This document shows positions 1,600 through 64,000 of a stretch of 64,000 bases of DNA, in pieces. Below the pieces are notes generated by a model that was not told the origin of the DNA, searched no databases, and saw only the letters and a list, made by a program, of their open reading frames with translations. The stretch spans positions 1,688,001-1,752,000 of the forward strand of contig JAUPFP010000004.1 of the NCBI GenBank assembly GCA_036925085.1, written 5' to 3'. Within the stretch, counting starts at the first letter, position 1; each line of letters begins with the position of its first letter. A program made the translations under genes and the position numbers. This stretch comes from Brachycybe producta (lineage: Eukaryota > Arthropoda > Diplopoda > Playtdesmida > Andrognathidae).

Positions 1600-1938
1600 T
1601 TAAGTTGTTTTTTGAACAGCTGATTTTCGAACTCTTGGTTATTAAAATATTGCAGGAGCAGCAACACTAAAGCAAAACTGAAAGTGTCTTAGAAACTAGA
1701 ACAGTAGCCGAATCACTTAATGTTTTCATGTTGATATAATTCAAAATAAACTTTTTTTTTTACTTAAAATGGGTCATTTTCAAACTGCCATAAAAAGAAA
1801 ATATCAATAAGAAATTACAATTAAATGATTGTGCTACCCTTCTAGTTTCTAAACACTTACAAAGTTATTTTTAATTTTGATCCAGAAAGACAGAATAACT
1901 AGAGTTGGAGTGGCATTTATGCTTTAAAACCAGCTTAA
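1600..1938 (+). mobile_element. Fold-back MITE, copy A (type II to type I)
   Basis: Near-complete copy of the commonest repeat in the window. The left end is type II (TTAAG, then CAGCTGATTTTCGAACTCTT). The left arm contains TTAGAAACTAGAA and a segment reading towards TTTCATGTTGAT. The right arm repeats these in inverted order (GCTACCCTTCTAGTTTCTAA) and finishes with the type I end (GCTTTAAAACCAGCTTAA). The arms are about 150 bp and separated by a short loop. There is no coding capacity, so this is a non-autonomous DNA element. The superfamily is not clear; termini TTAAG and CTTAA could reflect a TTAA or TA target. Confidence 0.8.
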
Positions 1939-2741
1939 TCGAGAACCTCCTTGTATATAAAAAAAAAGTTTACATACATGGTCATCTACATGAACCCTTT
2001 CGACGTCATAAGCTTCTTCTTACAATGAAGCATGTATACAGTAATAGGTCACTTGTAAACTATTTGCGGACTCTTCTAATTTATAACCACTGATGATCTT
2101 ATTCAAATGTAGTCTTTTTTATTATGTGTAGAAGTCCGGACGTTATGAAATTTAAGTAATTGCCTTGGAAACAAGTATATTTTAATTTGGGTTGTTATTC
2201 TCGTTGATGATGATGATGATGATGCCAAGTGCCAAAACATTTGAAATCGAATTCACCCCCCCCCCACCCCCAAATAATAATATCGAATTGACATTGTAAA
2301 TGACATTCACATACACATGTTTTAAAAACATGGTTTGAGCAAGAGTTACATACATGTATACAAAAAAAAATAATATGCACCCTTTTATTAACTTTGACGT
2401 ATTTGCTGCTGTTGTGGAATAGAGAGAAAAACAGCACACAATACGTGTAGAAAGTCATTCAAACAATGATGATATATCATTGACGCAATAATGAAACGCA
2501 CTATCAAATGCCTGAGAGCTATTATGTGCTTTTATTATATAATGTTGGACGTTTTTAATTGTTTACGTTTTCTATTTGATCAAAATATATTTTTATGAGG
2601 TGAAATTTAGAAGAAGAAAAAAATATACGACAGAGAAGATTAACAAAAAAAAAACACTCAACAGTGTTAAGACATTCACCTCTTTTGGACAAAAGATTGA
2701 AGTGAAAGTGATTGATTTTAGTTAAATAAAGTGAATATATT
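1939..2741. other. Gene-free stretch with GAT repeat and poly-C
   Basis: Non-coding. A (GAT)n microsatellite lies near 2205-2224 and a C-rich run near 2264-2280; these create two overlapping spurious reading frames on the minus strand. Nothing else recognised. Confidence 0.5.
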
Positions 2742-2972
2742 GTTGTCTCACTGCAAGATGAAGTTTATGATGTCAGAAGGGTTTGACAACAAAAATTAGG
2801 CTTCTCATTATGTCTGATTTATAAAAGGGGTAATAACAAAAGAATGCAATAATCCTTTTGTTTAAACAGTTGAACTTGATCGTATCCCTTTTCTATTAGT
2901 CTAAATGACACAATCCTTAATTTTTTGTCAACTTATCTGACGTCACAATCATCGTTTTACTTTTGATTCAAC
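2742..2972 (+). mobile_element. TIR element with CRE core, copy a
   Basis: Short element starting GTTGTCTCACTGCAAGATGA and ending, inverted, in CATCGTTTTAC...TTCAAC followed by TA. Both sides also share an inner inverted block (TTTGACAACAAAAATTAGG against CCTTAATTTTTTGTCAA). The right terminal repeat holds TGACGTCA at 2938-2945; the left has decayed to TGATGTCA. It is related to the copy at 21412-21762, which has a TA duplication. A Tc1/mariner-like MITE is the best guess. Confidence 0.65.
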
Positions 2973-3043
2973 TATAACCTTTTTTTTTTCAGAAGCAACA
3001 TTCTGTGTTAATCTACTCAAGCTCTGGTTATGGAGGCAACTGA

Positions 3044-3580
3044 TTAAGACGGTTAATGAACAGTTAAATTTTCGAACTTTTTGATTATTGTGTATTTCAG
3101 GAGTAAATTTAAGAGGAACTACAAAGTCGTTTAGAAACTAGAAAGAAAGTTAGGGAAGAATCACACATAGATCTACATAATAAAATCCCACAGAATTTCA
3201 CTTTGTAAGGAATTTAACATAAGCGCCATTATATCTTTCAGGTGCAAAGGACCATAAAATGAATTCTGATTTTTTATTTTTATTTCTAATTTCTGCTGGT
3301 TTTTCAGCATGTGTACTTCTTTAAATGTGAACCTGAAACTCAGAATAAGTAAAGTTGAAAAGTGTTTTAGAAACTAGAAAGGTATCTTCAACCACTTAAA
3401 GAGTATTTTCATGTTGATATATCTTTCAAAATAAACTTTTTGAAAGATATCACAACATGAAAAGACTATTTAAGTGATTGAACTACCCTTCTAATTTATA
3501 AAACAATCAAGTTATCTTCAATTTTGCACCTGAAAGACAAGACTAATGAGTTTGAAGGACGTTTACGCTTTAAAAATTGA
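3044..3580 (+). mobile_element. Fold-back MITE, copy B, interrupted
   Basis: Type II end at the left (TTAAGACGGTTAATGAACAG) and type I end at the right (GAAGGACGTTTACGCTTTAAAA). The left arm is broken near 3146 by a second small element (3151-3323). The arm sequence TTTAGAAACTAGAAAG appears on both sides of the break, at 3130-3145 and 3366-3381, as would a target duplication or a repeated arm. The central part is compact: the two AAATAAACTTTTTGAAAGATAT segments nearly meet. Confidence 0.75.
3151..3323. mobile_element. Small TIR element (GGGAAGAATCACACA), copy 1
   Basis: Begins TAGGGAAGAATCACACA and ends with the approximate inverse around CAGCATGTGTACTTCTT. The interior contains CACTTTGTAAGGAATTT, shared with copies at 8563-8660 and 37837-37994. 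No coding capacity. It is nested in fold-back copy B, so it is younger than that copy. Confidence 0.6.
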
Positions 3581-3656
3581 ACAAACTCTGGCCAATTTGT
3601 CACTCAAATCAGTTTGTAGGGTTATTTTTCAATTGGAGCTTGATCAGCGCCACCCT

Positions 3657-3747
3657 GGTTATTCTTTCTGTCTTTCAGAACCAAAACACTTTATGTTGTT
3701 ATATTTTAAAATAAGCTTTTTTATGTCAGTTTGAAATTGATTCAAGT
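3657..3747 (+). repeat. Fold-back MITE fragment
   Basis: Partial left arm only: GGTTATTCTTTCTGTCTTTCAG, then AAAATAAGC and TTTTTTATGTCAGTTTGAAA, in the order seen in complete copies. No matching right arm follows. Confidence 0.55.
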
Positions 3748-5217
3748 ACAAGTGTTAGTAAAACATTAACTTGTGAGCCACCAAATTATAAGTGATGTAT
3801 CATTTTGAGACTACAGGTGTTAGAAGAAGAAAGAAAAACTTATCAACACCATGTGTGGCCCACAAACAACATGATACACCAAAAAAAAAGAAGACTAAAA
3901 ATTCCAAAGAACACCTGAAATATATTGTGCAAGAAAGAAAAAGAGGGAGAGGAGAAATTTTGTATTTGGTGAACACAAACTTAAATAGGATATTTTTACA
4001 AATGGTGTTCTCTGAAATATACTGGAGTTGATTTTTCAACCTTGGAATTTGAACAAAAGAAAAGAAGAAGAAAAAATAATACTGAACAAGAGCAAGGTGG
4101 CGCGGCGCGGCAGACTTTTGAAATGTAAACTACCTCATCTTACTACTCCACCCTCTTGACCCTCAATACATTTCCACCTCTACCTCTTGACCTCTTAACA
4201 TACGTCGTTGTTTTTTACAACAACAAGTGGCTTAATAAGTTTCAGAAAAAAAAGACAAGCCTCAATTTACATTAAATGTTTTAAAAATCACTTTTTTCTT
4301 ATTTGCTTGTTTATATATGTTGAATGTGTGGGATTAAGTGGTAAGATCCTTTATGTTGCTTACTGCTGCTGTTGGTTGGTCAGTATTTTTTTTTTCGGTC
4401 TGTGTCCATCGATCGAATCGATTAATCAACACAAGTGACTTCCTTTGGCACGCGAACAAAACGAATGGCAAAAAGGTGGTCACTTTTTTTTTATTTCAAG
4501 GTAATGGATACCGCAATGCGTAAATCATTTTCTTGTTGCCCCTACTCACACACATACACACAAAAAAAGTATTGCCTCATTTCCGCTACTCATCATCATC
4601 GTAAGATTCTCTCTTTTCGCCGCCCTGACAACTAATCTATGATGATTAACCTTTACCAGAAAGACTGACTTATTTGAGGAGGCCCTTTCCCCTTCTCTTA
4701 GCCTCTCTCATCCCCTTCAATAACGTTAACCCCTTCTTTCTTTATGTCTTTTGATGAAATAAACGTCCCATTCTCTCTTGATTAAAGGGAGAGAGAGAGA
4801 AAGAGAGAGAGAGAGAGAAGAAAAAGAACAATTGATCGCAATCGATCTTTTTTTTTGTGTGTGTCCTTAGTTACAAATTTAACAAAAACACACAACTCTC
4901 TTCAATTCAATCCATCATTTCATTCTTTTTTTATTATAGATTTTACTTATCCAATAAAAGAGGAAAACTTACAACATTTTTTTAATATACCTTATTTTTC
5001 TGTGTTGTTGTTACTAGAGCTGTGGAACTGAAATTTTAATAAACTAAAATGACTAATTAGTCGAATTAGACAACACAAATAACTCCTTATTCACTAATTG
5101 AAAATTTATTTTAATACTAGTGGGGTAACCCGTCATAAATGACTGGAGCAAAATTCACAGGCAATTGTGCGCATGCGCGACGTTTTTTCCTTTTTTTACT
5201 CCTTTCATTTCAATTTC
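3748..5217. other. Gene-free stretch with simple repeats
   Basis: Non-coding. A short GC-rich island TGGCGCGGCGCGGC sits near 4098-4111 and a (GA)n tract near 4790-4819. Near 5121 is GTGGGGTAACCCGTC, which I treated only as a short unexplained motif. Confidence 0.5.
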
Positions 5218-5333
5218 AGTCACCCCCTCCCACTTTTCTCTCTCTCTCCCCTTCTACACTTTCCAACCTTTTCCCCTCACCCCCTCCCACTTTTCTCTCT
5301 CTTCCCCCCTTCTACACTTTCCAAAGGTTAGAG
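5218..5333. repeat. Tandem duplication of a C/T-rich unit
   Basis: A unit of about 57 bp (starting TCACCCCCTCCCACTTTTCT and ending in CTACACTTTCCAA) occurs twice in a row with small length differences. Spurious proline/serine-rich reading frames here come from this C/T-rich DNA. Confidence 0.85.
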
Positions 5334-5539
5334 TTCAACATATGTTGACCTTGAGAAAAAAAAACGGTTCATTTATTCAAATTTATATAAATTCCGACGT
5401 GCTTCAATGGTTTTGTACAGTTGTTACTCCACACACACACACACACATACACACAGACCTGGGATATTATATATATAAAATAATAAGGCATAATTAATAA
5501 TAAAAGGTAGTTTTTAGTTTATTCTATTAGTTTTATATT

Positions 5540-5985
5540 TTTAGGCAACCAAAAAAAATTTGTCAACTAAAATAATTACAGTCGACAAAAAAAAAGCTGA
5601 CTAAAAAGATATTAGTTGACTAAAAAATTTAGTTGACTTAAAAAAGTTTAGCTGACTTAAAAAAATTAGTGACTGAAAACCTACACGAAACTAATGTTTC
5701 TGCAATGCCCACATTATTTTTGGGAAATCTTCCCTACTTGAAGTTCCAGTGGTGATTGAATGACTAATTAATAGAATTATTTAAAGCAAATTAACTGCTC
5801 TTTCACTAATCATAGAAATATCCCTCGTTAATATTCAGATGTAAGGCATAGACTAACTAAAACTAAAAGGGTTTTTTAGTTTAGTTGACTAATTTTATAT
5901 TTTTAGTCACTGAATTTCTAGTCGACTAAAAATTTTAGTTGACGAATTACACAATTATTAGTTAACTAACTTGCACGACTAGTTG
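5540..5985. repeat. Cluster of GTTGACTAAAA-type short repeats
   Basis: Many degenerate copies of GTTGACTAAAA and its complement occur in two blocks (about 5560-5670 and 5865-5980). The pattern of GTCGACTAA-like motifs resembles subterminal repeats of some hAT-like elements, and AATTAGTCGAATTAG near 5050 may be the matching left side. Ends and target duplication were not resolved. Confidence 0.4.
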
Positions 5986-8000
5986 TCATTAATCCTAAAA
6001 CATGACAACATAATAAATAAAATTTGAGCAAAATCTATATCAATATACAAATGTATATCATCACCCTTGTCATATTAATTTAATAATTACACTGATGGGT
6101 TTACAGAATAACAGGAAGTAGTAATAATAATAATAATAATGATAATATTTCTGCATGTTTACTAGAAAAATATGGATGATGGAACAAAGTAGAAAAAAAA
6201 ATCACTTGCATAATTATGAGTAGAAGAAGACAGAAAAAAAAAAACACCTATTATTTGTATTTGAAACCGGAATCATTAAATTGGTACAATAGAAATACGA
6301 ACGTGTAATCAATATAGAAATTTGTAAAGAAATCAATTTCAAGGTGCTTTTTATAGGTTTGCAAATTGCAATGTATTCATATGGCTGTTGTTCGTTGTGT
6401 TGTGTCACATTCAATATTAGAATAGAACAATGAAATGATAAGAAATTTGAATGAAGATAATATGATGATGTCATTTTTTTTTTTCATATTTAATATTATA
6501 ACTCATTGCCAATGTACATGACACAATTAAAATTAATTACTCTCTTTTCAAAGAAGATTCTAATAATAATAAGGAAAAGTAGCATTTGCACAATTTGTCT
6601 TCAGAATTTTTTTACTTTCAACTTCGAAATTGACATACTTTAAATGTCAGGGTTAATTTATACTTCATTATTTGCAAGATTTCAAAATTGCAAATGTTGG
6701 GTGCAATTGCAAACTGAAAACTTATTTCTTTATGTTGTATAGAATCTAGAAGAGCGATTGCTCCCAACGATAGACTTGACCGAATGTGCTTGATTTTGAC
6801 ATTTTCTGCTACAATATGAGGCCATAAAAAGCAACATAAATATAAGGAAGCCCCATTTTGGAAACATGTCATTTACATTCACAGTACGCATTCTGACCTT
6901 CACAGTGAAGTTCGCCATCATGGGCGCTGGTAGCATGGAGCAAGTGCGCCAACTTTGGATTTTGAAGTCATACATAATTTTTTAATATTTTTTTAGAATT
7001 TACTGAAACATTACAGTGAATATTGCTTTAATTATTGCCAATGTGATCGCCACTTTACGTTGATTAATTAGATGATTGCTTTCTTGAGAATGCTAGGCGG
7101 AGCTAGCATGGTTCCTGGATACAAATCTGTCACAGGCATTCCACACACATGTGGTTTCTGGAAGCTCCTTTTCTCTGGTGTCTTTACATACATAAAATAG
7201 CTTTTTCTTCAGTTTCCCAATTGCATCTATTATCTTTCTAGAGATGCCAGCTTTCTTTACAAACAAATAATAAATGTGACACTTGTTAAGAGATACTTGT
7301 GTTGAAATTCCTTTAAACCAATTTTGTTTATCATACGTTGCTTATTGTTGCAGGTATGAGAGAGAGAGAGAGAGAGAGAGACAGAGCATGTTGTATGTTT
7401 CAGAAGTTTGCAAAAATATTTGTATGTTCCGTTCCACTCAAATATTTGCATCTCGAGCCTTTTAATTTACCTTTGTTAGGAATCAATACACAGTAGGAAC
7501 CATTTATTTATATACCTATAATAATGTGTTAACTACATTTTAATAACAAGCTTTCATGTTGAATGATCAATGATCATTGCGAAAGGTGTAATCAAAACCA
7601 TAAAAGCTCTAATTCAGTGGTCACTTACAAACATTGTTAACTTTATAAAAGGTTCTTTCTTATCTTCTAATCTTAATGAAAATTATGAAACCACTTTATA
7701 ATTTATGATAAATTGTACTGGTTTTTCCTACAAAGAGGGAGGAAATCAAGAGTAAATTTAGTAAAAACAGATTGTTAAAAGGAGACAATTACAATATTAT
7801 GTAGTTATTTTAGACCACTAATTTCTATAGAAATAATTTCTGAAATAAATTGAGATATTTTTAAAAAAAAAACTTAAGAGTGTAAAAAAATAATTAAGAT
7901 AAATTTTAATTATCAAAGTTTGAAAAATATATTTTTTTTATTTTTAAATGGCAATTTTAAACTTAAAAAAAAAAACAATAATGCAAGTTTATTTTCAAAT
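5986..8000. other. Gene-free stretch
   Basis: Non-coding. Contains a TAA microsatellite near 6122-6139 and a (GA)n tract at 7358-7381. The open frames near 6214-6975 are AT-rich, lack splice-site support and match nothing I recognise. Confidence 0.5.
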
Positions 8001-8440: not shown

Positions 8441-8562
8441 TATATCATTAAAAAGCCTCATGAGATCTTAACAAATTCTTAACTCTAGGTTTTTTTTTTA
8501 ATTTATTGATTTTCTTCTAAATGTTGCTTCTAAAAAGCTGAGAAATAGAATTTCTCTGAAAG

Positions 8563-8660
8563 AAAGAGAAGAATCACAAAAGCGTAAAAAAATTCCACTG
8601 AATTTCATTTTGTAAGGTATTTAGCAGAAGCGCGCCATGTTTCTTTCAGAATTACAGAAA
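8563..8660. repeat. Small TIR element (GAAGAATCACA), fragment
   Basis: Shares GAGAAGAATCACA, CACTGAATTTCATTTTGTAAGG and the following segment with the copies at 3151 and 37837. The right end is replaced by an unrelated hairpin. Confidence 0.5.
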
Positions 8661-8669
8661 TAGAATATC

Positions 8670-13861: not shown

Positions 13862-13921
<60 letters not shown>

Positions 13922-13924
13922 TAT
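13862..13924. repeat. (TA)n microsatellite, left of a TIR element
   Basis: About 28 TA units, nearly pure, ending directly at the left terminus of the 121-bp element. Confidence 0.95.
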
Positions 13925-14041
13925 GTCGCATCCATTTGTTTGAAATGTACGTCCATTTCGCGAAATGAACATAAATTGGCCTGATGCAAAACGCGAAATG
14001 GACACACATTTCGTGTAATGGACAATTACACCAAATGGATG

Positions 14042-14045
<4 letters not shown>
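13925..14045. mobile_element. 121-bp TIR element inside a TA microsatellite
   Basis: Left end GTCGCATCCATTTG and right end CAAATGGATGCAAC are inverted repeats (13 of 14 matching). Further inside, CATTTCGCGAAATG and CGCGAAATGGAC pair across the centre, so most of the element is palindromic. Long TA tracts touch both ends. The simplest reading is a MITE that inserts at TA and sits in a TA microsatellite; alternatively its ends promote TA expansion. Confidence 0.75.

Positions 14046-14109
<64 letters not shown>
14046..14109. repeat. (TA)n microsatellite, right of a TIR element
   Basis: About 32 TA units starting immediately after the element terminus at 14045. Confidence 0.95.
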
Positions 14110-17907: not shown

Positions 17908-18368
17908 ACTTGTGATTTTGTATTAGGTGCAAAATAAAAAGAAACTTGAAAAGTTGAAAGTGTTTTCGAAACTAGAAGGGTAGCTCAATCACTTAAGGAC
18001 AATTTTCATATTATTATCTTCCAAAATAAGCTTTTTAAGCTTGTTTGGAAATGACCAAACTTTAAAGCAAACTGATATTTTTCAATTATTACTTACAAAA
18101 AGTTTATTTTGAATGATATCAACATGAAAATATGGGTCGTGCTAACTGCCAGTATGATGATACTAGTCTAGTCTGTATCACCATAGAAAATGCACCGATA
18201 ATAGGAATTACTATGCCCTTACAGAGTGGACTCAGTATCAGGCCTAACCCTGAATGTGATTGAGCTACCCTTCTAGTTTCGAAAACACTTTCCAAGTTTC
18301 TCTTCATTTTGTTATTGAAAGATAGAATAATCAATAGTTCGATAATCAGCAGTTCTCATAAACCATCA
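17908..18368 (-). mobile_element. Fold-back MITE, copy C, interrupted
   Basis: The left arm has GAAACTAGAAGGGTAGCTCA and the right arm TTGAGCTACCCTTCTAGTTT. The right end is type II (GATAATCAGCAGTTC, then ATAAACCATCA). An insertion of about 120 bp of unknown origin (18132-18254) breaks the right arm. Confidence 0.75.
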
Positions 18369-19181: not shown

Positions 19182-19581
19182 ATAAGGTTGTTTTGAAGTG
19201 TAAACCGCCTCTTTAACTCTTGATTCTTTTTGACTTTCAGGTGCAAAGTGAAGAGAAATATTAAAAATGTGTTTTAGAAACTAAAGGGTAGCTCATTCAC
19301 TTAAGGGTATTTTCCTTATTGATGTCTTTCAAAATAAGCTTTTTGTGTCAGTTTGAAAATGATCCGACTTTTACGCAGATGATGTTGCTATTTTGTAATT
19401 TTTGTCTACAAGAAGTTTATTTCGAAAGATAACAATATGAAAAATACTATTAAGTAACTGAGCTACTACTCATTCTAGTTTCTAACGCACTTTTCAATTT
19501 CTCGCGGTAGTGCTGCTCTTCTGAACCACAGAAATAACCAAGAGTTCTTAAAAATCAGCATGTACATAAAACATATCTTAA
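19182..19581 (-). mobile_element. Fold-back MITE, copy D (type I to type II)
   Basis: Complete copy of about 400 bp. The type I left end is TAAGGTTGTTTTGAAGTGTA and the type II right end is AAAATCAGCATGTACATAAA followed by CTTAA. The left arm contains GACTTTCAGGTGCAAAG, which looks like a 3' splice site (pyrimidines plus CAG). The loop carries the GTCAGTTTGAAAATGA motif seen in other copies. Confidence 0.8.
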
Positions 19582-28399: not shown

Positions 28400-29055
28400 G
28401 CTTATTCTGCATTTTGAGGAGGCAAAATTATGAAAAACTTGAAAAATGTTTTAGAAACTAGAAAAGGTAACAGTTAAGAATATTTTCATAATTATTTATA
28501 GAAAGTTTATTTTGAAAGATATTATCAACATGAAAAATTGTTATTCAGCTACCGTTCCAGTTTCCAACCCACTTGCAGTTTCACTTTTAGTGTTGCTTTT
28601 GTTCAAGGGCGGACTTGGAGAAAAAAATACAGCCTAAGGAAAAAAATATTTACCCGGCTCCAAAGAGTAAAGAACTCCAAAAATGCCTAAAACTACACTT
28701 TTTTTAAATGTTAAGTTTTTAATCAAAATTACAAATAGTTCTCTTATTTGCATTTTTGCCTTCAGTAAAATGTCAACTTTCGCTATTTTGCACAAACGTT
28801 TAACAGGCGTAGCTAGCCAAAAAAATATCTAAAACCAGAAAAAAATGTTCTTTCTAAAATATTTTTCATTCCTTTTCCTCCAAAATGTGTCATTATCTTT
28901 TGTTGGTTTTTCTATTATTTAAAAAAAACAGCAGCTTTCTGGCCTTTCTGATCTTTTTCTTGTTCAAGTTTCATCATCAAATCGGCCCTCAAACTAACAG
29001 GTCCATCAGGCCCGTCCTCCCCTGGTGTAGCTCACTTGTTCATAAAACATCTTAA
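28400..29055 (-). mobile_element. Fold-back MITE, copy E, interrupted by a hAT-like element
   Basis: The left arm includes TTTTAGAAACTAGAAAAGG, the right arm CAGCTACCGTTCCAGTTTCC. The type II end (GTTCATAAAACATCTTAA) lies beyond an insertion at 28614-29024. The loop is shorter than in most copies. Confidence 0.7.
28614..29024. mobile_element. hAT-like non-autonomous element
   Basis: Left end CAAGGGCGGACTTGG; right end, inverted, CAGGGGAGGACGGGCCTGA. This CAGGGGCGGAC type of terminus is common in hAT elements. No transposase frame. The flanking 8 bp do not match, so either the boundaries are shifted or the copy is old. Confidence 0.6.
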
Positions 29056-30078: not shown

Positions 30079-30180
30079 CTTAAGAAAATCATTTTATAGA
30101 AACTAGAATAGTAGTAGAATTAATTATGTTCAAAAGTATTTTTCTAATGATATCATAAAAAACTGAACATTTTATGACAG
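30079..30180. repeat. Fold-back relative (second subfamily), fragment
   Basis: AGAAACTAGAATAGTAGTAG, then ATGATATCAT, and AACATTTTATGACAGCTT. The version with ACTAGAATAGT rather than ACTAGAAGGGT recurs at 58336, 59437 and 62176 and appears to be a sister subfamily. Confidence 0.5.
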
Positions 30181-30321
30181 CTTAAAATTTTTAAAAAATT
30201 TAAAACATTTTGCATAAATGTTAACAAACTCTGATATATAATTAATTCTGTGTTTCAGGACGAAAATGAAAATCAACCAGAAAGTGTTTTAGAAACTTGG
30301 AAGAGATGCTCAATCATTTAA

Positions 30322-30650
30322 AGAAACCACAGTCCAGTGATATTCTTAAAGCACTATACATAGGCAGGGCTGACCACTCTAAGAAAATTAGGGAGATTTT
30401 TGCTAGGACAGATTCATATTATTGGTCTTTTTTTCCTAAGAGTTATAAGACAATAGAACTGTCTTTTTGAGGCAGTGGTGAATGGGGATAACTTGTTTTG
30501 TGGGATTGACATTTGTATATTCATTTTGTTTTGATATATGTGCATGTATATGTGCTTGACAATGCTTAATGCTGCATGTGGACTTTAATGTCCCTCTGCC
30601 ATAGGCCTATTTGGCTGCTAGCAGAGTACTAATTGTAATTGTAAAAAAAA
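30322..30650 (+). mobile_element. 5'-truncated non-LTR retrotransposon (LINE), 3' end
   Basis: Begins with the last 48 codons of a reverse-transcriptase ORF and continues with a short 3' UTR. The UTR contains a hairpin (CTCTGCCATAGG ... GCTAGCAGAG) and ends TTGTAATTGTAAAAAAAA, as in target-primed insertions. The UTR block TGTCCCTCTGCCATAGGC is shared with 41830-41850. It lies within fold-back copy G, so it is younger. Confidence 0.75.
30324..30470 (+). pseudogene. C-terminal tail of LINE reverse-transcriptase polyprotein
   Basis: Open frame of 48 codons ending at the TGA at 30468-30470 with no stop in between. It shows the pattern found at the C-terminus of many CR1/Jockey/L2-like LINE ORF2 proteins: a His-Ser-Lys-Lys motif, then Arg-Thr, then SYYWSFFPKS (compare the family motif SFFPRTI.dWN.LP). 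The usual WN.LP is replaced by IELSF and a stop. The catalytic domains are absent because of 5' truncation, so it is inactive. Confidence 0.65.
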
Positions 30651-30884
30651 GAGTATTTTCATATTGATATACATTTTAAAAATGCTTTTTATGCCTTTTC
30701 AAACATGTCAAAACTTTTTGTCTAAAACGTTTATTTTGAAAGATAGCAACATAAAAACACTCTTCAATTGAACTACCCTTCTAGTTTGTAAAACACATTC
30801 AAGTTTCTCTTCATTTTACATCTGGAAGACAGAATATTCAGTGTTTGAGAGGCGTTTACATTTTAAAATTACTTTAAACATTGC

Positions 30885-34286: not shown

Positions 34287-36040
34287 TATTTAACTTTAAA
34301 ACAGGATGCATTTTACTTGTGCCAACTGCCAACTGATGTACATTATTTCATGTAACGAATTACATGCACTATCAAACTCTTGATTAATACACACACCGTA
34401 TAGAAACACATAAACACGGGCTTTTCATTTGCTGCCATAATTTTTGATATTAATATATACTGTATATATCGTCGTTTAAGAAGTGATACCACGTAACTAA
34501 CAAAATATAAATTTTACAAGAGGAACAAAAAATGTTTTAATGCGTAAGGTTTTGTTACACAATTTTTTTGCTAATAAAATTATTTGGACGTTTTTTTTGA
34601 GCCATAATTAATATAATTATGTTAACGTACATGACATCACAAACAATTTTTTTCTTCTAATTATTTGCAAAATCACATTAAATGGATTTGAACACCCTCT
34701 ACCAGTCAATATCTTTTAAAATAATTGTTTATTTTGCGATATTTTCCAACGGATGTACTTTTTTTTTGCTGATTTTTTTATGTAGAAAGTGTGAACATGT
34801 GCTTTTATAGAAAAAATATACAATATATGAAAACAATTTCTATAGAAACAATGTTTTGAAATTGGGTGTAAGGTATTAGTCTCACGTTCCTCCCCCTCAC
34901 TCTATCCGGAAGAAAAAAAAAATCCGAGAGAACCGAATAAAAAAAAGGTTCTATTTAAATATGGAATGGCGGAGAGAAAGAATGAGAGAGTGAGAAAAAA
35001 AATAACATAAGATCTAGATGATTTTATATATATTTTTCTTATTTTGTGTTTGTGTTGTTAGGAAAAGTTGTCAGTTTTTTTGCCGACTAATATATCATTC
35101 TTTTCCCTGCTGAGTAACAGAAGTGGAAGAAGAAAAGGTAAAAAAAAACCCCTCCTCGATTCAGACTCAAGATTAGACAAACTTTTCTTATATATGTATT
35201 TCTTTTACCCCTTTTTCTCTCTCTCTCTCTCTTCAAGTACACTGGGTAATATATATATTACATATGCATCAATGTAATAAATTCAAATCTTTTTTTTTGA
35301 GGGAAAAAGAAAGAAAAGTCTTATTGTTTTCAAGTGGAATAAGGAAAGGTAAAAGTTTTTTTTTCAACAAACAAACAAACAAAAAACATCCAAAAAAGAA
35401 GAACCAACAAAAAAAATTGTTTTGTATGCACCTTTGCAAGTTTAATATGAATTTTTTTTTGTTAGAAATAACTATATACGAGTTATGAATTCTAATAACT
35501 TTTATTTTCATGTTTTGTTTTAAATAAAACTTCGGTTGTTGTTTTTGTGTGTTATTCAAAAATAAATAAGGTGAAAACTGAAAACCATTTAAAACAAAAA
35601 GAAACAGCGAAAAATATCGGATAACAAGAAATATATTTTCAATTCGGTTTCTTAGAAAATAGCATGGTAATTATAATTACACGAACTCTTTGATTATTCT
35701 GTCTTTCAGATGAAAAATGAAGAGAAACTAATACCTAGTACACACCTGATAATTTAAATGCATTTAAATAATAAACGTGGTCCACAGAGCCCTGTGAAGG
35801 GCAAACAAACAATATATCGAATTCAATTTATTCAGTTAATAATCTGAAAATATTGAGTTAATACTTAAATATAATATATAAACTATTGACATTAAAATAT
35901 TGATTTAGTATTTCAATTTAAAATATTAATAATAAAGTCAATTTTTATTTGGTTCATGTCCTTAACTGGATTCCGTATAATTCTCCTAAACACATTTAAT
36001 TAGAATTGATTTAACTCATGTGTGTACAAGGTATAAAAGG
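34287..36040. other. Gene-free stretch with two repeat fragments
   Basis: Non-coding. A pogo-like fragment lies at 35578-35660 (GAAAACCATTTAAAAC, ATATCGGATAACAAGAAAT) and a type I fold-back arm fragment at 35691-35742 (TGATTATTCTGTCTTTCAGA). The remainder is AT-rich. Confidence 0.55.
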
Positions 36041-36629
36041 GAAACTCAATCACATTTATACCTCGTTTAAAGTTTAAACTACAAAAACTAACTGTAGTTA
36101 AAAAGTTAACCACAGTTAATATTTTCTAGTGTAAACATATTATGTCGTCACAATAACCATGGTTAAATATCTGAACAATGAAGTTATCTCAACTGTATTG
36201 ACACAATTGAATGGTTAAATACGTCACTTCCTGTGTTCGAAAATAAATTTAGACTACAAACAACATGGCGAATAGTGAGAGTACTCAATTTTTGATTGAA
36301 TGAGGAATGAAACCAAACAGGAAGTGACACAAAATCATTTTAAACACAGGTGTTTTTTTTTTAAAAATGGAAACAAAAAAGTAATACTTCTAGCATACCT
36401 ACAGTTAACTATAACCTTGGTTATGTAACTGAGGTTAATTTGCATAGTGAAAACGAGATATTAAGAGTATTTTAATGTTGAGAGCTAGCTACCTTTCTAG
36501 TTTTTAAAACATTTTAGTTAGCTACCTTTCTAGTTTTTAAAACATTTTTAGTTTCACTTCATTTTAACTCCTGAAAGATAGACTAATCGAAGAGTTCGAA
36601 AAATCAGCTGTTCAAAAAACCATTTTAAA
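36041..36629 (-). mobile_element. Fold-back MITE, copy H, interrupted and rearranged
   Basis: A left-arm remnant (GGGAAACTCAATCACATTTA) precedes a CCTCG-type insertion (36061-36458). The right arm resumes at TTAAGAGTATTTTAATGTTG and ends type II (GTTCGAAAAATCAGCTGTTC). A 33-bp piece of the right arm is tandemly duplicated at 36486-36518 and 36519-36551. Confidence 0.7.
36061..36458 (+). mobile_element. CCTCG-type TIR element, copy 3
   Basis: Starts CCTCGTTTAAAGTTTAAACT and ends GTGAAAACGAGA; TA on both sides. Contains CAACATGGCGAATAGTGAGA and CAGGAAGTGACACAAAATCA as in copy 2. Inserted in fold-back copy H. Confidence 0.8.
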
Positions 36630-37116: not shown

Positions 37117-37735
37117 TTAAGGTAGTTTGAAAGTGTAAATGTTCCTCCAACTCTGTTTAGTGAGTCTTTTTAACTTTTAGAAGAAAAATGAAGAGAAACT
37201 TGAAAGTTGTTTAGAAACTAGAAGGGTAGCTCAATCACTTAAGGATAATTTCATGTTATCTTTTCTAATAAGCTTTTTATGATCCCACTTTATTTAATAC
37301 TACAAAATTAACTGCAGTTACATAACCAAGGTTATAGTTAACTGCAGACAAGCTAGAAGTGGTACTGTTGTGTGTTTCCATTTTGAAGACACACTTACCT
37401 TTGGTTAAATAATTTTGTGTCACTTCCTGTTTGTGCTCATTTCCTGTTAATTTTTCACTCCACATTCAGTCAAAAATTGTGCGCTCTCACTATCAGCTAT
37501 GTTGTTTGTAGGCTAAATTTGTTTTACCACAGGAAGAAACATATTTAAGAAAACTAATCATGAATTTCACCGTGGTTAATGTAACCACATTTGTTTCCAC
37601 TAGAAAATGAACTATGGTTAACTTTTTAACTGTAGTTAATTTTTGTAGTGGAAAAAAGATGTAAGTGAAAAGTATTTTTCAAATTTTGTCTTAGTCTATA
37701 AAAAGTTTATTTTGAAAGATGTTAACTTAGAATTG
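37117..37735 (-). mobile_element. Fold-back MITE, copy I, interrupted
   Basis: Type I left end TTAAGGTAGTTTGAAAGTGT; left arm GAAACTAGAAGGGTAGCTCA. A CCTCG-type element (37298-37661) sits in the loop. The right side resumes with CTATAAAAAGTTTATTTTGA and then degrades; the type II end is not recognisable. Confidence 0.7.
37298..37661 (-). mobile_element. CCTCG-type TIR element, copy 4
   Basis: Opposite orientation to copies 2 and 3: AAGCTAGAAGTGGTACTG is near the left end and CACTTCCTGTT is in the middle. The left terminus has lost the CCTCGTTTCCA part; the right ends GTAGTGGAAAAAAGATGTA. Nested in fold-back copy I. Confidence 0.75.
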
Positions 37736-42560: not shown

Positions 42561-42913
42561 AGTCAAAATGAGGAGCAAAATTACGACAAACTAGAAAGGG
42601 TTTTAGGAAGGATAACGGTAGCTCAATCACTTACAGATATTTTCATGTTGATATCTTTGAAAATAAACTTTTTATGAACAAAAACTAACTAAATATTGTC
42701 TCTGCTAAGCAACGTCTGCTTAAAGTTGGGTCATTTTGAAACTTGACATAAAAAGCTTATTTTAAAAGAATATCAATATGGAAATTACCCCTAAGTGATT
42801 GCGGCTACTCTTCTAGTTTCTAAAACACTTTCGAATTTCTCTTAATTCTTCACCTTGAAGACAGAATAACGAAGTTTTTTAAAGAGACGTTTTACACTTT
42901 ATAACCACCTTAA
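42561..42913 (+). mobile_element. Fold-back MITE, copy J
   Basis: Left arm AATGAGGAGCAAAATTACGA, GGTAGCTCAATCACTTA; right arm GATTGCGGCTACTCTTCTAG and a type I end (GACGTTTTACACTTTATAAC, then CCTTAA). The loop holds CTGCTAAGCAACGTCTGCTT, also seen in copy K. The extreme left end is missing. Confidence 0.75.
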
Positions 42914-53010: not shown

Positions 53011-53340
53011 TTAAGATGGTTTATGAACAGCTAATTTTCGAACTCTTGAGGAAGATTTTTTTTTTAAAAACTAGAAAGTGTTTTAGAAATTAAAATGGTA
53101 GCGGTTGATATCTTTGAAAATAAACTTGTTATAGACAAAAATTAAAAAAATTACTGTCTGCTAAGCATTTGACTGCTAAAAAGTTAAGTCATTTCCAAAC
53201 TTATTTTGAAAGATATCAAGATGAAATGATTGAACTACTCTTCTAGTTTCTAAAACACAAGTTTCTCTTTTTATTTTGCGCCTGAAAGTTGAATAATCAA
53301 GATTTCTAGGGAGGTTGTTTATACTTTAAAACCATCTTAT
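53011..53340 (+). mobile_element. Fold-back MITE, copy K (type II to type I)
   Basis: Type II left end TTAAGATGGTTTATGAACAG, type I right end TTATACTTTAAAACCATCTT. The right arm has GAACTACTCTTCTAGTTTCT. The left arm has lost part of its GGGTAGCTCAATCAC segment. Loop with CTGTCTGCTAAGCA. Confidence 0.8.
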
Positions 53341-56379: not shown

Positions 56380-56838
56380 GTAAAGGTTCTAATATGATAA
56401 TATGCTGTATATTGTATAAAAAGGGCCATTCGTTCTGCTTTGAGAATCATACAGAACAACAACAACCACTTTATGGAGGGAAAAAAGGGGCAGAAAGAAG
56501 AGATTTCAAGTTTTTGATTCATAGCTTTTTACTTTTTCTTCTCCAAGTAACCATTAAGAAAGAATAAACGCAACCAACAGGTGTCGCTCGTTTGCTTGTC
56601 TGTGTGTGGCTGCATGCCTCTGATTTACTACACAATTTAAAATATAATCCATTATATCTATTAAATTTTCCATATATGAGTGTTGCCTATTATATTGCAA
56701 TCATATGATCTCTAAACTTTTTCTTTTGCGGTTTCAACGCTTATTTAGTCTTTTTCGTTCCCTCTCCCCTCTGTCCATTTCACTTAATCCAAATTTTAAT
56801 AACAAAAATGACCTCAAAACTTTTTAATTTTCTTTTAA
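56380..56838. other. Gene-free stretch
   Basis: Non-coding; nothing recognised. Confidence 0.5.
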
Positions 56839-57147
56839 TAAGGTGGTTTTAAAGTGTAAAACGCATCTCTCGAACTCTTGATTATTCTGTTTTTTAGGTT
56901 GCAGAAACTGTGTTTTAGAAACTAGAAGGGTAGCTCAATCACTTAGGGTATTTTTCATGCTGATAGCTTTCAAAATAAGCTTTTTATGTGAGTTTGAAAA
57001 TGACTCAACTTTTAAGCAGACAACATTTTATTAAATTTTTGTCAATTTTGAAAGTTCCATTCTAGTTTCACCCCTGTATTCTGTCCATCAGGAGCAAAAA
57101 TTGTCAAGAGTTCGTAAGTAAATTAGCTGTTTAATAAACCAACTTAA
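56839..57147 (-). mobile_element. Fold-back MITE, copy M (type I to type II)
   Basis: Type I left end TAAGGTGGTTTTAAAGTGTA, left arm GAAACTAGAAGGGTAGCTCA, type II right end GAGTTCGTAAGTAAATTAGC, then CTTAA. The right arm is shortened: it jumps from the loop to CCATTCTAGTTTCAC. Confidence 0.8.
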
Positions 57148-57960: not shown

Positions 57961-58308
57961 TTAAGATGGTTTATGCACAGCTGATTTTCGAACTATTGAT
58001 TAATTCTTCTTCTGACTTTCAGGAACAAAATTAAAATAAATTAGAAAGTGTTTCAGAAACTAGAAAAATGTAGCTGGAATCACTTAAAAATACTTTCATG
58101 TCGATATTTTTTCAAAATATTATCTACCTAAAGTTTCAAAATTCACATAAAAAAGCTTATTTTGAAAGATATCAACATGAAAATACCCTTAAGTTATTGA
58201 GCTACCCTTCTAGTTTATAAAACATATTTAAATTTCTCATCAGTTTGGCACTTGAAGAAAAGAATAATCAAGTGTTTGAGAGGCGTTTACACTTTAAAAC
58301 AAACTTAA
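57961..58308 (+). mobile_element. Fold-back MITE, copy N (type II to type I)
   Basis: Well-preserved copy of 348 bp: TTAAGATGGTTTATGCACAG, then a CTGATTTTCGAACT segment at the left; GTTTGAGAGGCGTTTACACT, then AACTTAA at the right. The right arm reads ATATCAACATGAAAATACCC and TTGAGCTACCCTTCTAG. A good reference copy for the family. Confidence 0.85.
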
Positions 58309-58335
58309 TTAAGTTTCAAAACCAACAAATTCAAA

Positions 58336-58595
58336 GTTTGTTAGAAACTAGTAGATGTAAACTATATCTTAATGATAATAAAAGTGAAAAGGGGGGGGGG
58401 GGATATCTTTAAAATTAAACATTTTATGAGCAATAAGCCTAAAATTTCAAAAGAAACTTGATGAACTCTCTAACAGGGTTTCAACAAAGAAATTTCGTTT
58501 TAAAAGTTTTTCTTTCTTGAATTTTGGTCTCAATAGGCTGAAAAATGATTTCAAGTTGCCATAAAAAGTTTATTTTTAAAGATATCGTCATAAAA
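58336..58595. repeat. Fold-back relative (second subfamily)
   Basis: Left TTAGAAACTAGTAGATG, ATAAACATTTTATGAGCAA; right GTTGCCATAAAAAGTTTATT, AAAGATATCGTCATAAAA. A G-run interrupts the left arm near 58391-58402. Confidence 0.5.
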
Positions 58596-59436
58596 AAACC
58601 GTTGTGGGTCACTTTTGAATTATTGTTCAGGGCCCCAACTGGCCCCAAACCAACCTTTATTTTACTATGTCCTTCTAAATAAATTTGAACAAAACTACAT
58701 TTTTATGGAAACAACACAAAAACAACACAGGATCACGATGGAATTTTTTTTACCTCCCCAAGGTTCTTGCTCAATTTGTACAAAAGTTTCAATAACACAC
58801 CTGACATGATTTCGATACATTTGTACAAAAAAAGATTACGTGACTTTTTTTAGATTTATATATATAAAATTGTACTCTTTTTTCTTCTCCACCCACTGAA
58901 ACACCGTGTTTTAACAATTGACCTTGGTCCAATTGTCGTATTCATTACAATTTCATCAAACAACAAGCAACACAATTATAAAAAAAAATCTGTTCATCCC
59001 TTATAAGAACTGAACTGAAACCGTGTTATTTGGAACAAAATGTTTATAATTGACCCCCTTCGGCCACTTAATATTTATAGAAAATGTGTATCACTTTTGA
59101 TTCTGACCATGTCTCAAGGACACACATCTTCAGTTTAGTGTAAAATGGTATAATATTACACAAAAAAAGGACCAATGTTTAGGAGAGACAAGATCAGTAT
59201 TTCCAGTATTATTAACTTTTTATTTAACAGGTGTGATGACAGGTGTTGTTACATGACGGGTGGACATTATTTATTTCATTCGAATTTAAGGTGGCTGACT
59301 AGATATTTATTGCGTTTTTGTCCCTCTGGGATGACGCCACTGGAATGGATGTTATATAGATGTTTTTTTTTGAAAAACCTGGACGCAAAAACGTCAAAGC
59401 GAATTTTTTTTAGAAATAGTACGAAAAAATTCATAT
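58596..59436. other. Gene-free stretch
   Basis: Non-coding. The open frame from 59175 runs into the next fold-back copy and is not supported. Confidence 0.5.
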
Positions 59437-59700
59437 TGTTTTCAAAACTAGAATGGCAAATGGTTATGTTCAGGTCTTTTCATGGCAATATCTTAAAAAA
59501 TAAACATTTTATAGCAGTTTGAAAATGACCTGTTTCTTATTTTTCCGTTCACATTTCATGAAAAACCATTTTCGCCTTTTTCAAACAGGCATAAAATGTT
59601 ATTTTGAAAGATACCATCATGAAATAACTTTTAGCATTATCATCAACTATTCTAGTCTCTAAAATACTTTGAATTTTTTCGTAATGTTTCTCCTGAAAAA
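59437..59700. repeat. Fold-back relative (second subfamily)
   Basis: Left ACTAGAATGGCAAATGGTTA, AAATAAACATTTTATAGCAG; right GGCATAAAATGTTATTTTGA, AAGATACCATCATGAAATAA, CAACTATTCTAGTCTCTAAA. The arms pair around a central TTTCATG. Confidence 0.6.
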
Positions 59701-59925
59701 AAAAACGTTCGCTTGAAAGACAAAAACCTTCTCAAAGCTGCGGCATTTGAGAAAGAGACCTCCTATAGAACACCACTAAAGTGGCGCCATCTAGTAAAGA
59801 CAAAAATTAAATATCTATTCTGCCACCTTAAAATGATTTTTTCCTGAACAACATAAGAAAAATTCTTTGCTGTCGTTTTGAGTTTCCAACAAAATTCGTC
59901 TTTTTATCCCTTAAGATTCCCCTCT

Positions 59926-59994
59926 TGTGACACTAGAAAAATTCTCTTCAAAATAAGTAGGAACTTCTTGAGAGCAAAAATTTCTAGTGTCACA
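59926..59994. repeat. 69-base hairpin, precursor-microRNA-like size
   Basis: TGTGACACTAGAAA (59926-59939) pairs perfectly with TTTCTAGTGTCACA (59981-59994). Pairing continues inward with TTCTCTTCAA / TTGAGAG. Size and shape resemble a pre-miRNA, but a small fold-back element is equally possible; no sequence match to a known miRNA is claimed. Confidence 0.6.
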
Positions 59995-61834
59995 GTCTCT
60001 CATAGGAAGAAGAGGAGATTTTGACAAGTAACAAACATTCAGCCCATCACTTTCTATATTTATAAGGGAAAGAAAAACTTTTCCTTTTGGGGTCGATTTT
60101 GCTGCAATTTCTTGTTTTTTTGTGTCTCCAAAGACCCCTAAGAAGAATATATATTTTCGAGGAACTTCTATGAGTTAAATACCCTCACTTTTAACAATCC
60201 CTTTATCCCTCCCCTCATAGTTAAAAGACCCCCCTCCATGCATCAAAATACCGCCTCATCTTTATTTCTAAACCCCAAAATACACCCACAACAATTGTTA
60301 ACCTTAAGGTCCTAGTAGTGTCCTTCCAACCCCCTTGTTATGTCCTTTTTCCATTCTTCTGAACATTTTTCTCAAAAGAAAAAAAAGGACCTCGACTTTG
60401 TGAACATATTTCCCCACCTTCCCCCCCCCCTCCCTCCATTTCTATCCCCTTTTTTTTCCTTTGAAAAATGTGACAAGACGTTTTATTTAAAGCAACTTGT
60501 TGATGCCCCCACATCATCAACCCAAACAACATACAAGAGATCTCTATGGAGATTGAACCCCAATAAGAAAAGGACCCAAAACGAGAGAATAGATAAAAGT
60601 ATTTCTTTAAAAGTATACGGGGAGGGGGGGGGGGGAGAGGGTGTGATAGAAGATGGTGGTTCACTGTGTTGAAGAGTTTTTTTTCTCTCTCTCTTTTATC
60701 AATTCTCCATTAAAACTCACCCTTGTTTGTCAGCCATTGAAGTATTGACTGACCAGTGAGTGAGGTGACCACTGTCTCCATATTTAGCTCTCTTTTTCTA
60801 TCTTATATCTCACTCCCCTGAAATCTCATTTTAGTCAACTTGACACATTTTTAGTTGGCCAATTCTTCCCCCCTCCCCCAACACTACAAAAAAGTAATTC
60901 AAAATAAACAAGTTTCTTAACTGTGTTTATTTCAAAACTTTCCCTCCCCCCCCCAAAAAAATGGGCAATTTGCTGCTAGTTAGCTTTTTATCCGGAAAAA
61001 AACACCTCATGGCTAATATTTATTTAAAACACCCCTTTTCCTCTCTCTTTTTTATCCACTTCAAAAAATATAAATGACTTCATTGGGTCACTTCAATGTT
61101 GTGAAGTATAATAAAATGATGACTTCAGAAATAAATAAGAGAAATATCTAAAAAAAAAAAATAAAAGAGAGGTTTTTATAACTGCACCTTAATATTTTTT
61201 TTGTGCATAAAAAGGTAAATTTTGAACAAAGGAAATGTGGAAGGTACAAATCATACAATGTATAATTCTTCGCACGGGATGATGGTATTGGAACAGGATG
61301 TCGGTTGTTATTAATTTCATAATGTTGCCTTGAAGTTGACCCTCTCTCTATCTTTCTTTCATTCACTCAATACACGTCCTGCAGAAAAATGTGTATTGCC
61401 CGCTTCAGGTGACAGACCATCCATGACCACCACTACTACTAAACCTACTACTACAGTACTACTAATTCCATCATCATACAAAGACAATTATTGGAGTAGA
61501 GATACAAAGACCCCTTCTTCATTTGGGACAATAATAAGAGATAGACTCTTCTAAATTTTTTCACCAGTTGCCACAGTGTTTTTATTTAATTGTCTAATTG
61601 TAACAACATTAATAAATAGATTCTTTGGTTTCCTGTCTATTGTTGGTTATTTTAACATCCATTCATATAAGATATATTTGAACTCCCCCCTCCTCCTCCC
61701 TCTCAAGAGACTTTTTTTTTAGTTTGAATTAATTAAAAGCGTTTGATAGCGTAATTTCAAAAATAGATATACCTTTAGTAAAAGTTAAGATTTCCAGTTT
61801 TAGTAAACAACTTCATGAAAATAAATTAAAAATA
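59995..61834. other. Gene-free stretch
   Basis: Non-coding. C- and T-rich segments near 60180-60460 and 60860-60960 and G-runs near 60620 give spurious frames on both strands. An ACT/CTA repeat lies near 61426-61460. Confidence 0.5.
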
Positions 61835-62120
61835 GGGCTCGGATTTTTTTATTTATTGTAAAATCAAGCAAATGTTTCTCAAGTTGCAGCCTCAAGCACC
61901 AATTGTAAGGTAACAATTCCGTTTAGATCAACCAACAATTACGTTTTTTTAAAATCAAAAACACTGGTTAGAGGCTAGAACTCTTAACTTGACAATTGAT
62001 AGTAACCAGACATTTAGCCTCTCTTAACAATCTTTTTGATTAGAAAAAGCATTATTGCAGTTGCCATAATGATGATAATTACTTCACAATTGGCACTTTG
62101 GTCCATGAAAATCCGAGCCA
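61835..62120. mobile_element. TIR element GGCTCGGATTTT
   Basis: GGCTCGGATTTT (61836-61847) and AAAATCCGAGCC (62108-62119) are perfect inverted repeats. Inside, AGAGGCTA and TAGCCTCT form a second inverted pair around 61971-62023. About 286 bp and non-coding. Superfamily unknown. Confidence 0.7.
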
Positions 62121-62175
62121 CTAATTATAACCATGTTAGAGAAAATTAATTAAATGCTAATGATACTTTATTATG

Positions 62176-62400
62176 ATTGCTATCGTTAAAAAAAATAAAC
62201 ATTTTAGGACAAGTTTGAAAATAAGCTCACTTTTCATTTTTTTTGGGGAAAATATTCAAGTTGGTCATTTTCAAACTTCTATGTAAAGTTTAAATTTAAC
62301 AAAAGATATCATCAACAGGAAAACTTCATAATCTTGATGAATTTACTATTCTAGTATGTAACCTCTGCTTTTTAAATTTTAGAATAATCAAAAATTCTAA
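62176..62400. repeat. Fold-back relative (second subfamily)
   Basis: AAATAAACATTTTAGGACAA, AAGATATCATCAACAGGAAA and ACTATTCTAGTATGTAAC occur in family order. Diverged. Confidence 0.5.
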
Positions 62401-62814
62401 TGTAGCCTTCTCCTTTGTTATATTAGGTAAATAAAGTGTTATTTCGATTTTTGATATCAATATATGCATATATGTCATTATATTTTGTAAAATAAAATAG
62501 GGTGGGTTGAGTGTATAAAGGGGGGAGGAGGGTTATGTACCTTATTGTTTCTCATGAATGAACACATAAAGAGCGGGGAAGAGAAAAAGGAGTGGCTGAG
62601 CCCCCCCCCCCCCCCCCGCCCCTCTCCCCATTTCTAATTTGGTAAATTTCCACCGAAATACAATAAGTATACTACATACATGTATATATAAAAAAAATTG
62701 CTGGTGTATGTAACTCTTACTTCACTCCCACTTTACCCCCCCCCTCCCTTATCATTCTGTCCATCCCGCTGGTCTGGTCGTCACGGTCGTACACCCTAAC
62801 CGTGCCTTTAACTT
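62401..62814. other. Gene-free stretch with C17 run
   Basis: Non-coding. A run of 17 C lies at 62601-62617. Nothing else recognised. Confidence 0.5.
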
Positions 62815-62828
62815 GTTACCATGGTAAC
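62815..62828. promoter_or_regulatory. Perfect RFX X-box palindrome
   Basis: GTTACCATGGTAAC matches the consensus for RFX-family transcription factors (GTNRCC..RGYAAC) on both half-sites. The flanking 500 bp are less AT-rich and contain CAGCTGACTG and CRE-like sites, which suggests a regulatory segment. Binding is inferred from the motif only. Confidence 0.5.
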
Positions 62829-63160
62829 CAAACTCTCTAGACAGGCGTTTTCAAACTAATCAGCTGACTGTAATATGTGCTTGTCGCTTTTTTTTATATA
62901 TATAATAGAATCTACCACCCACCCACTCAATCTTCTCTTTTTTTTTGTGATTTACTCTGATGACGTAACTTTTGGTCATGGATTTTGATGAATTAGTTGA
63001 GCCAAGGGGTTGAATTCCTATTTGTATTTTCTCCCCCTAACCATTTTTTTTTCGTTCATCAAGAGGTGACATCTCCCTGAGTCTGAGATCTTATTCACTC
63101 ATCTCCATGCTCCTATTTCTCCCCTAAATCTCCCTCTCATTTTTTGTTACTGCTGCTCAC

Positions 63161-63233
63161 CGTAGCGCGCTCTATTGACGATAATAAAAACAGCAAAAAC
63201 ATTGATCTCAATGACCCGAGTAATGACGTCATT
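63161..63233 (-). promoter_or_regulatory. Possible promoter / 5' exon with CRE
   Basis: AATGACGTCATT (63222-63233) is a perfect CREB/ATF site. Reading on the minus strand, about 60 bp further lies GAGCGCGCTACG|GTGAGC, a fair splice donor at 63160, with local CpG. A non-coding first exon of the ZMIZ-type gene would sit in this direction, but the link is conjecture. Confidence 0.2.
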
Positions 63234-63303
63234 CGAATGTCTCTTTTTGTAGTTTGTTGTTGCTAATTTAAAATCTTAACACCTCAAAATTAAAAGTTTC
63301 TAA

Positions 63304-63593
63304 AGCCTGCTTCACACGGACCACTTTGTGTCGCCACGTAAAGTGGTCCTTTTTAGGTTTCCATTAATTACATGGGAGGGGTGTTCACACGAGCTACTCC
63401 CACCGGGGTTTTTTTTTTGGCACAGCGGTAGTGAACAGTGGGCAAGTCCAGCCACGAGTGGCGACCACCGCCAGCATGTTTGTCTGTGGTAATCTAGGTC
63501 ATACCAATGGAATGTACTAACAGCATTCTATTTTCAATGGTAGTTTATGAGTTTCTTTGTGGTGACACAAAGTTGTTCGTGTGAGGCGGGCCT
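63304..63593. mobile_element. PIF/Harbinger-like MITE, copy 2, intact
   Basis: Left TIR AGCCTGCTTCACACGGACCA and right TIR, inverted, AGGCCCGCCTCACACGAACA. Both continue with ACTTTGTGTC(G/A)CCAC. Flanked by TAA at 63301-63303 and 63594-63596, the 3-bp TWA duplication expected for PIF/Harbinger. Length 290 bp, no transposase. Confidence 0.85.
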
Positions 63594-63730
63594 TAAAAAA
63601 AAGGTGCGCCAGTACCTACATCATTATTTTATCAGACTAGATTTATAAAATATAGCCAACTCGAGAATACTGTTAGAATTATTTAAAATAAATGATTAAC
63701 CTGTTTTATTAATTTAATTATAGAAACAGT

Positions 63731-64000
63731 TTAAGATGGTTTATGAACAACTAACTGATTTCAGAACTTACAATTATTCTGAATTTCAGAAGCAATACTA
63801 AAAAGAAATTTAAAGTGTGCTAAAAACTAGATGGATCCCTTAATAGTGTTTTCATGTTCATATCTTTCAAAATAAACTTTTTATAGACAAAAACTAAAAT
63901 AATATAATTTTCTCAAAGTTGGGTCAATCATCAAACTGACATAACAATCTCACTTTAAAAGATATTACTACCCTTCTAGTTTCTAACAGACTTTCAATTT
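63731..64000 (+). mobile_element. Fold-back MITE, copy R, cut by window edge
   Basis: Type II left end TTAAGATGGTTTATGAACAA, arm segments CTAAAAACTAGATGG and TTTCAAAATAAACTTTTTAT, right arm CTACCCTTCTAGTTTCTAA. The right end lies beyond 64000. Confidence 0.75.

Follow-up and report, generated by a model that had tools for sequence, protein, structure and literature searches.

A large family of TTAA-flanked fold-back miniature inverted-repeat transposable elements in Brachycybe producta, with a likely main origin from one ancestor with unlike ends

Microuli elements of Aedes, among the known systems closest to the one described here, target TTAA and carry subterminal inverted repeats without known terminal inverted repeats. 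For Kolobok transposons, the available part of one account gives the rule as a TTAA target with a terminus of two purines (RR) (PMC6004289), and for piggyBac the need for asymmetric ends rests, in the portion of the source at hand, on structures and cell assays (PMC7351741). Here, we describe a miniature inverted-repeat transposable element (MITE) with fold-back arms, many copies of which lie in a window of 64,000 nucleotides of Brachycybe producta DNA (the whole stretch that was analysed, G000:C4:1688001-1752000, from an assembly of 295 Mb in 442 contigs). It is likely, with real room for doubt, that these copies belong to a large non-autonomous family of TTAA-inserting fold-back MITEs that would go back for the most part to a single ancestor whose two ends were unlike and would depend on a transposase supplied in trans. 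Such a TTAA-specific transposase would cut both ends and insert the element into TTAA.

A copy is about 340 bp long, non-coding and flanked by TTAA, and consists of two long inverted arms that form a core hairpin of about 130 bp each. The tips have the terminal TTAAGRTGG in common, and the next 20 bp or so separates type I from type II, the consensus being TTAA-GGTGGTTTTAAAGTGTAAACGGCCTCT for type I (19 aligned typed tips) and TTAA-GATGGTTTATGAACAGCTGATTTT for type II (21 aligned typed tips). Both tips are followed by an identical arm start, CGAACTCTTGATTATTCTGTCTTTCA. Thirteen well-tipped pairs, which were selected for near-complete tips, measured 278-400 bp, and nine of them had TTAA at both ends; two of the thirteen, L037 and L038, have flanks that suggest a single locus in duplicate. 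Since an nhmmer consensus of the whole palindrome can be fitted by either strand, it blended the two tips and was replaced by profile searches with the half-element (arm). The fold energies of nine copies added nothing beyond the inverted arms. The copies are short, non-coding, numerous, similar in length and inverted at their ends, as expected of MITEs, and with thousands of tips in the genome the fold-back MITE family proposed in an earlier note on this DNA was borne out.

Within the window, tip II was found at six sites and tip I at seven sites with at most three mismatches, against 0.03 expected for each. Genome-wide, where reversed tip patterns served as background controls, 3618 sites (1802+1816) matched tip II with at most two mismatches compared with 3 (1+2) for the control, and 5161 sites (2606+2555) matched tip I compared with 22 (13+9).

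A sister subfamily, given in the earlier note as a second subfamily with the string ACTAGAATAGT, does exist, and the site of this string at 59646 is part of a sister element (59286-59831, no strand assigned) that carries a third tip, TTAAGGTGGCWGAnTAGATATTTA (tip III), at both ends. Its core arms are homologous to those of the I/II family, alignments of 91 bp and 111 bp to the I/II arm consensus being 71% and 76% identical, respectively. Tip III with at most one mismatch occurs at 1770 sites genome-wide (901+869; control 0), and among the matches listed there were at least five inward-facing pairs of exact tips 490-881 bp apart. Two pairs spanning 879 and 881 bp (G000:C1:4292580-4293458 and C1:10056703-10057583) could be a longer sister form. 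Further ACTAGAATAGT sites with arm-like surroundings, at 30102, 55656 and 62345 of the window, probably represent sister-subfamily copies that have diverged.

The pairing of ends was counted genome-wide in an exact-tip census, in which exact 13-base inner tips had to lie 297-357 bp apart and palindromic matches, being listed twice, were halved. The 40 copies comprised 29 II..I, 8 I..I and 3 II..II, whereas random pairing of the same 80 ends predicts 19.7 mixed, 12.7 I..I and 7.7 II..II (permutation p about 0.004). End pairing was also read in 72 sequences of 356 kb in all, namely the window and 71 loci, 48 of them retrieved on the basis of a tip match and 20 picked by position. Of the 59 hairpin pairs in these sequences, 20 were I/II, 3 were II/II and 1 was I/I; one or both arms were truncated in 32 (14+11+7), and 3 had an arm of undecided type. 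When either L037 or L038 was dropped, 19 of the 23 fully typed pairs were mixed (p 0.003 against one half). The 20 position-picked loci and the window together gave seven mixed pairs, one II/II and no I/I, and all four fully typed I/II-family pairs within the window were mixed. In addition, the arm beyond the tip matched the type of the tip in 95 of 113 cases with leave-one-out scoring (49/57 for type I and 46/56 for type II).

The earlier note had seen no copy with two identical ends and had deduced a single master element with unlike ends, to be checked by counting end-type pairs. The first claim is contradicted by the like-ended copies in both counts and by the III/III copy in the window. 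Since copies with two type I or two type II ends were found, the exclusive form of the master-element claim fails as well, and its direction holds as a tendency, in the excess of mixed copies and in the linkage of arm to tip. Both are what one asymmetric founder predicts, and the mixed ends are probably due to descent from one lopsided ancestor. The like-ended copies would have arisen by recombination or by the use of another end.

Whether the transposase itself favours unlike ends is a separate matter. The strongest alternative, which we regard as rather more probable than its opposite and which is compatible with the origin from one founder, gives the mixed excess no functional meaning: both halves of the asymmetric founder were inherited, and the transposase accepts any pair. 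The tip-arm linkage is as simple descent predicts, and the existence of I..I and II..II copies, as well as of like-ended copies in the sister subfamily, points the same way. Nothing decisive stands against it, as descent and functional need are inseparable from pairing data alone. A functional need for unlike ends may exist, but it goes beyond what the pairing data separate.

Copies of the family also abut one another. At locus L032, three head-to-tail units of about 310-330 bp each are joined at an internal TTAA of the preceding unit's arm (TTAAGAGAAACT, referred to as S), and locus L048 consists of units that run from S to tip I; both tandem arrays were read directly. Compared by eye, S and tip I both have TTAAG, then 8-9 bases, then AAAGTGT. 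Genome-wide, 70 junctions of a tip with S were found (17 exact, control 0), compared with 13 of the reciprocal junctions, in which an outer piece meets a tip (0 exact, control 0). The half-patterns are themselves unequally common in all the sequences analysed (61 vs 35 with at most one mismatch, 16 vs 4 exact); after correction for these base rates the bias has a p of about 5e-5, and of 0.03 for exact junctions. Tip-tip junctions sharing one TTAA numbered 111 with at most one mismatch and 31 exact (control 0). By a rough calculation, random insertion into TTAA predicts about 6 such junctions with exact tips against the 31 observed, given an estimated 3.4 million TTAA sites and a tip density taken from 259 kb, in which there were 8 exact tips and 24 when one mismatch was allowed. 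We infer that S is a true cleavage end. Some copies would then end at S, the internal TTAA of the arm, and this would produce head-to-tail runs with one TTAA per junction.

The abutting copies and the S junctions could instead be plain nested insertions into the TTAA of older copies, which we consider unlikely, although it retains some force. TTAA is common inside the arms, and a host piggyBac of family C sits in an arm piece of the MITE (L077, by eye), so the arms do serve as a target. However, nesting predicts equal numbers of tip-S and outer-tip junctions, which is not what the genome-wide counts gave, even though part of the difference is base rate. Nor do the 66 bases past the last tip at L032 contain the outer fragment that nested insertion should have left behind.

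Several observations weigh against the family history proposed here. Like-ended copies, 11 of the 40 in the exact-tip census, are at odds with a strict two-end rule of any kind, and when the ends in 32 sequences had first been paired less stringently, eight mixed, four II/II and one I/I were obtained. If each tip is allowed one mismatch, random insertion predicts about 56 tip-tip junctions against the 111 observed, and the tip-tip excess is therefore only about 2-fold to 5-fold. The copies are old, with a mean divergence from the consensus of about 11% (local alignments, a lower bound), and therefore activity cannot be seen. The open reading frame (ORF) lists of the window and the fetched loci, inspected by eye and with no Kolobok profile search made, showed no autonomous partner bearing these tips. 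Finally, the insertion site was read at L057, where a copy is nested in a sister-type arm. Its flanks were joined at one 4-mer and aligned to six sister-type arms (from L010, L023 twice, L008, L002 and L022); five of these arms align to the 4-mer without a gap (TTTC, TTTA, TTTC, TCAA and TTTA) and one with a gap. TTAA was read at this 4-mer in none of the six, the right 4-mer of the copy is CTAA, and the identities are about 71-75%. This one diverged case would weakly suggest a 4-bp target duplication. A BLAST search with flanks for empty sites returned mostly the element itself among the matches listed.

As for the source of the transposase, the TTAA target is shared with piggyBac, and 93 piggyBac matches were found in the host genome, at least four groups of which contain long open frames. 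The piggyBac transposase is reported to need asymmetric ends, according to the available part of the source (PMC7351741), which would explain the mixed ends, so the family could be a MITE of a host piggyBac mobilised by its transposase. The ends of these elements were read from eight pieces of 551 bp from four copies, with boundaries judged by motif and not by comparison of copies. The right ends of families A and C read AAAGGG-TTAA, and the ends of family B read TTAA-CCCATTTT and TTAATGGG-TTAA; family D was unclear, and no left end was assigned for A, C or D. The readable ends (A, B and C) thus carry CCC/GGG beside TTAA where the MITE has GRTGG, and piggyBac was rejected as the source. Four of the six best-scoring piggyBac matches lie on C1, and among the C1 tip matches listed none to the exact tip I or II was closer than 3 kb to any of these four. 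Mobilisation by a host piggyBac is accordingly improbable.

The host piggyBac elements gave two further observations. Four matches with identical scores and open frames of 620 codons (G000:C1:6141124, C1:12714159, C1:13384735 and C26:525118) suggest recent activity of these copies. At L077 (G000:C13:4304250-4304800), a piggyBac copy with an open frame of 624 codons was read by eye as inserted in a MITE arm (AAAGGG followed by TTAATCACTTAAGAG...).

The tips of the MITE agree with the Kolobok end rule, having TTAA-GA in tip II and TTAA-GG in tips I and III, that is, TTAA with a terminal RR. As this rule holds and the piggyBac ends are unlike, Kolobok is the better lead, and by TTAA and RR the transposase would be of a Kolobok-like type.

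The sister subfamily also carries a motif just inside its ends that resembles the CTCF consensus, CCASYAGRKGGCRSY. Type III ends with this CTCF-like motif were noted at 59782 in the window and at L008:2523, L023:4025 and 4504, L026:7613 and L021:9818, an example from L008 being CCCACTAGATGGCGCCAC. The string TGGCGCCA occurs 15 times in 360.5 kb compared with about 0.9 expected from base composition, and seven of these occurrences are no more than 110 bp from a III-like tip, one of them (L010:7948) just outside its tip. Genome-wide, the exact tip III string is followed 18-48 bp beyond by TGGCGCCAC at 218 sites (control 0). A seemingly different repeat (ACATTTCTATGGGAGG..GTGGCGCCAT) also contains TGGCGCCA, at L008:1089, L018:1199 and L022:74. 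Were this CTCF-like motif of the type III ends to be bound, the family would also supply chromatin-boundary-like sites.

A wider scenario, which we consider improbable, would combine these features. The end modules I, II and III and the cryptic S would be interchangeable on a conserved hairpin core, and the transposase would favour unlike pairs and also fire at S, so that tandem arrays would arise by transposition and not by unequal crossing-over. The III branch would meanwhile have spread hundreds of CTCF-like motifs just inside its ends, in some copies as an inverted pair. The remaining explanation, that these are random AT-rich palindromes or simple-sequence hairpins with no mobile element, is refuted for practical purposes: TA-type palindromes do occur in the window (e.g. 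13862-14108), but specific 20-mers are present in thousands of copies against 3 and 22 in the reversed controls.

An arm profile search of the window found 24 arms, corresponding to about 16-19 copies, full or partial, according to how the fragments are put together, in agreement with the figure of about 18 in the earlier note. The same search of the position-picked set (20 loci of 10 kb, 195 kb after masking) found 55 arms, with none in nine of the 20 loci. Arms cover 3.1 of 64 kb in the window and 6.9 of 195 kb (roughly 3.5%) in the position-picked loci. By this cover and these arm counts, the window is somewhat rich in copies, but it is neither a hotspot nor exceptional.

Taking the direction from tip II to tip I as the + strand, full copies with tip II on the left, tip I on the right and TTAA at both ends lie at 1600-1938 (+) and 57961-58308 (+, 348 bp), and the copy at 53011-53340 (+) has an exact tip II on the left and tip I on the right. 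The copy at 19182-19574 (-) has tip I on the left and tip II on the right. A compound copy at 3044-3580 (+), which may be two copies, is made of a tip II arm (3045-3147), a truncated arm (3353-3441) and a tip I right arm (3574-3438). Truncated left arms are found in the copy at 17912-18367 (-), which has a tip II right end and, by eye, an insert near 18136-18256, and in the copy at 42570-42913 (+), which has a tip I right end. The copy at 30243-30876 (+), with tip I on the right, has, by eye, an interrupting stretch of about 330 bp, and a fragmentary copy at 28424-29055 (-) consists of core arms (28424-28586), other sequence and tip II (29055-29036). The fragments at 35680-36623 (no strand assigned), a truncated left arm (35680-35729) and a tip II right arm (36518-36623), are of unsure oneness. 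A lone tip I arm lies at 37117-37280 (+), a tip I left arm with its loop but no right arm found at 56838-57060 (+), and a tip II left arm at 63731-64000 (+) belongs to a copy that continues to the end of the window.

A scan of the window with Rfam at gathering thresholds and a tRNA search returned nothing, and no transposase-like frame was recognised by eye among its 17 ORFs of at least 110 codons. In the fetched loci, the 30 longest ORFs of at least 140 aa were viewed by eye with no family search, and none was tied to a tip; they included satellite-like repeats, frames resembling those of retroelements and, at L014:1312-2781, a 490-aa open frame that looked integrase-like. A 15.4-kb contig of the assembly carries mitochondrial COX1, COX2 and ND1 under code 5, with COX1 adjoining COX2, as would be expected of an invertebrate host. 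Copies of COX1 also lie in nuclear contigs (G000:C1:12697416-12698753 and C17:4027703-4029047); one of the two is nearly full length and has a single TAA apart from its TGA codons.

A literature search found no paper that we recognised as describing the family, with repeat libraries (Repbase, Dfam) outside that search, and a literature search for the tip strings gave, among the matches listed, only 9-base strings and neither of the two longest. The Kolobok T2-MITEs of Xenopus are alike in their TTAA target, adjacent purines and non-autonomous copies, but have the terminal motif AGGRR instead of GRTGG, and the part of their account available to us describes no long hairpin arms with two unlike tips such as those seen here (PMC6004289). 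piggyBac and its MITEs share the TTAA target and have asymmetric functional ends, as far as the available text goes (PMC7351741), whereas the readable ends of the host piggyBac are unlike those of the family. KolobokP, of the Kolobok lineage, is alike in forming solo units and multimers of its terminal unit; in the excerpt available, however, each unit is a long terminal direct repeat, and the repeats enclose a coding region (PMC9587614), while the family here is an inverted-arm hairpin in which no coding interior was seen. Membership of KolobokP was rejected, as the copies read are inverted-arm hairpins with neither long terminal direct repeats nor a transposase gene.

To summarise, this is likely to be a new family of the known TTAA fold-back MITE kind. 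Replicated thousands of times, it serves as a natural experiment on the pairs of ends that a TTAA transposase will accept. Because like-ended copies also exist, it looks like one more family of a known kind, still without a name, and not like a new kind of element.

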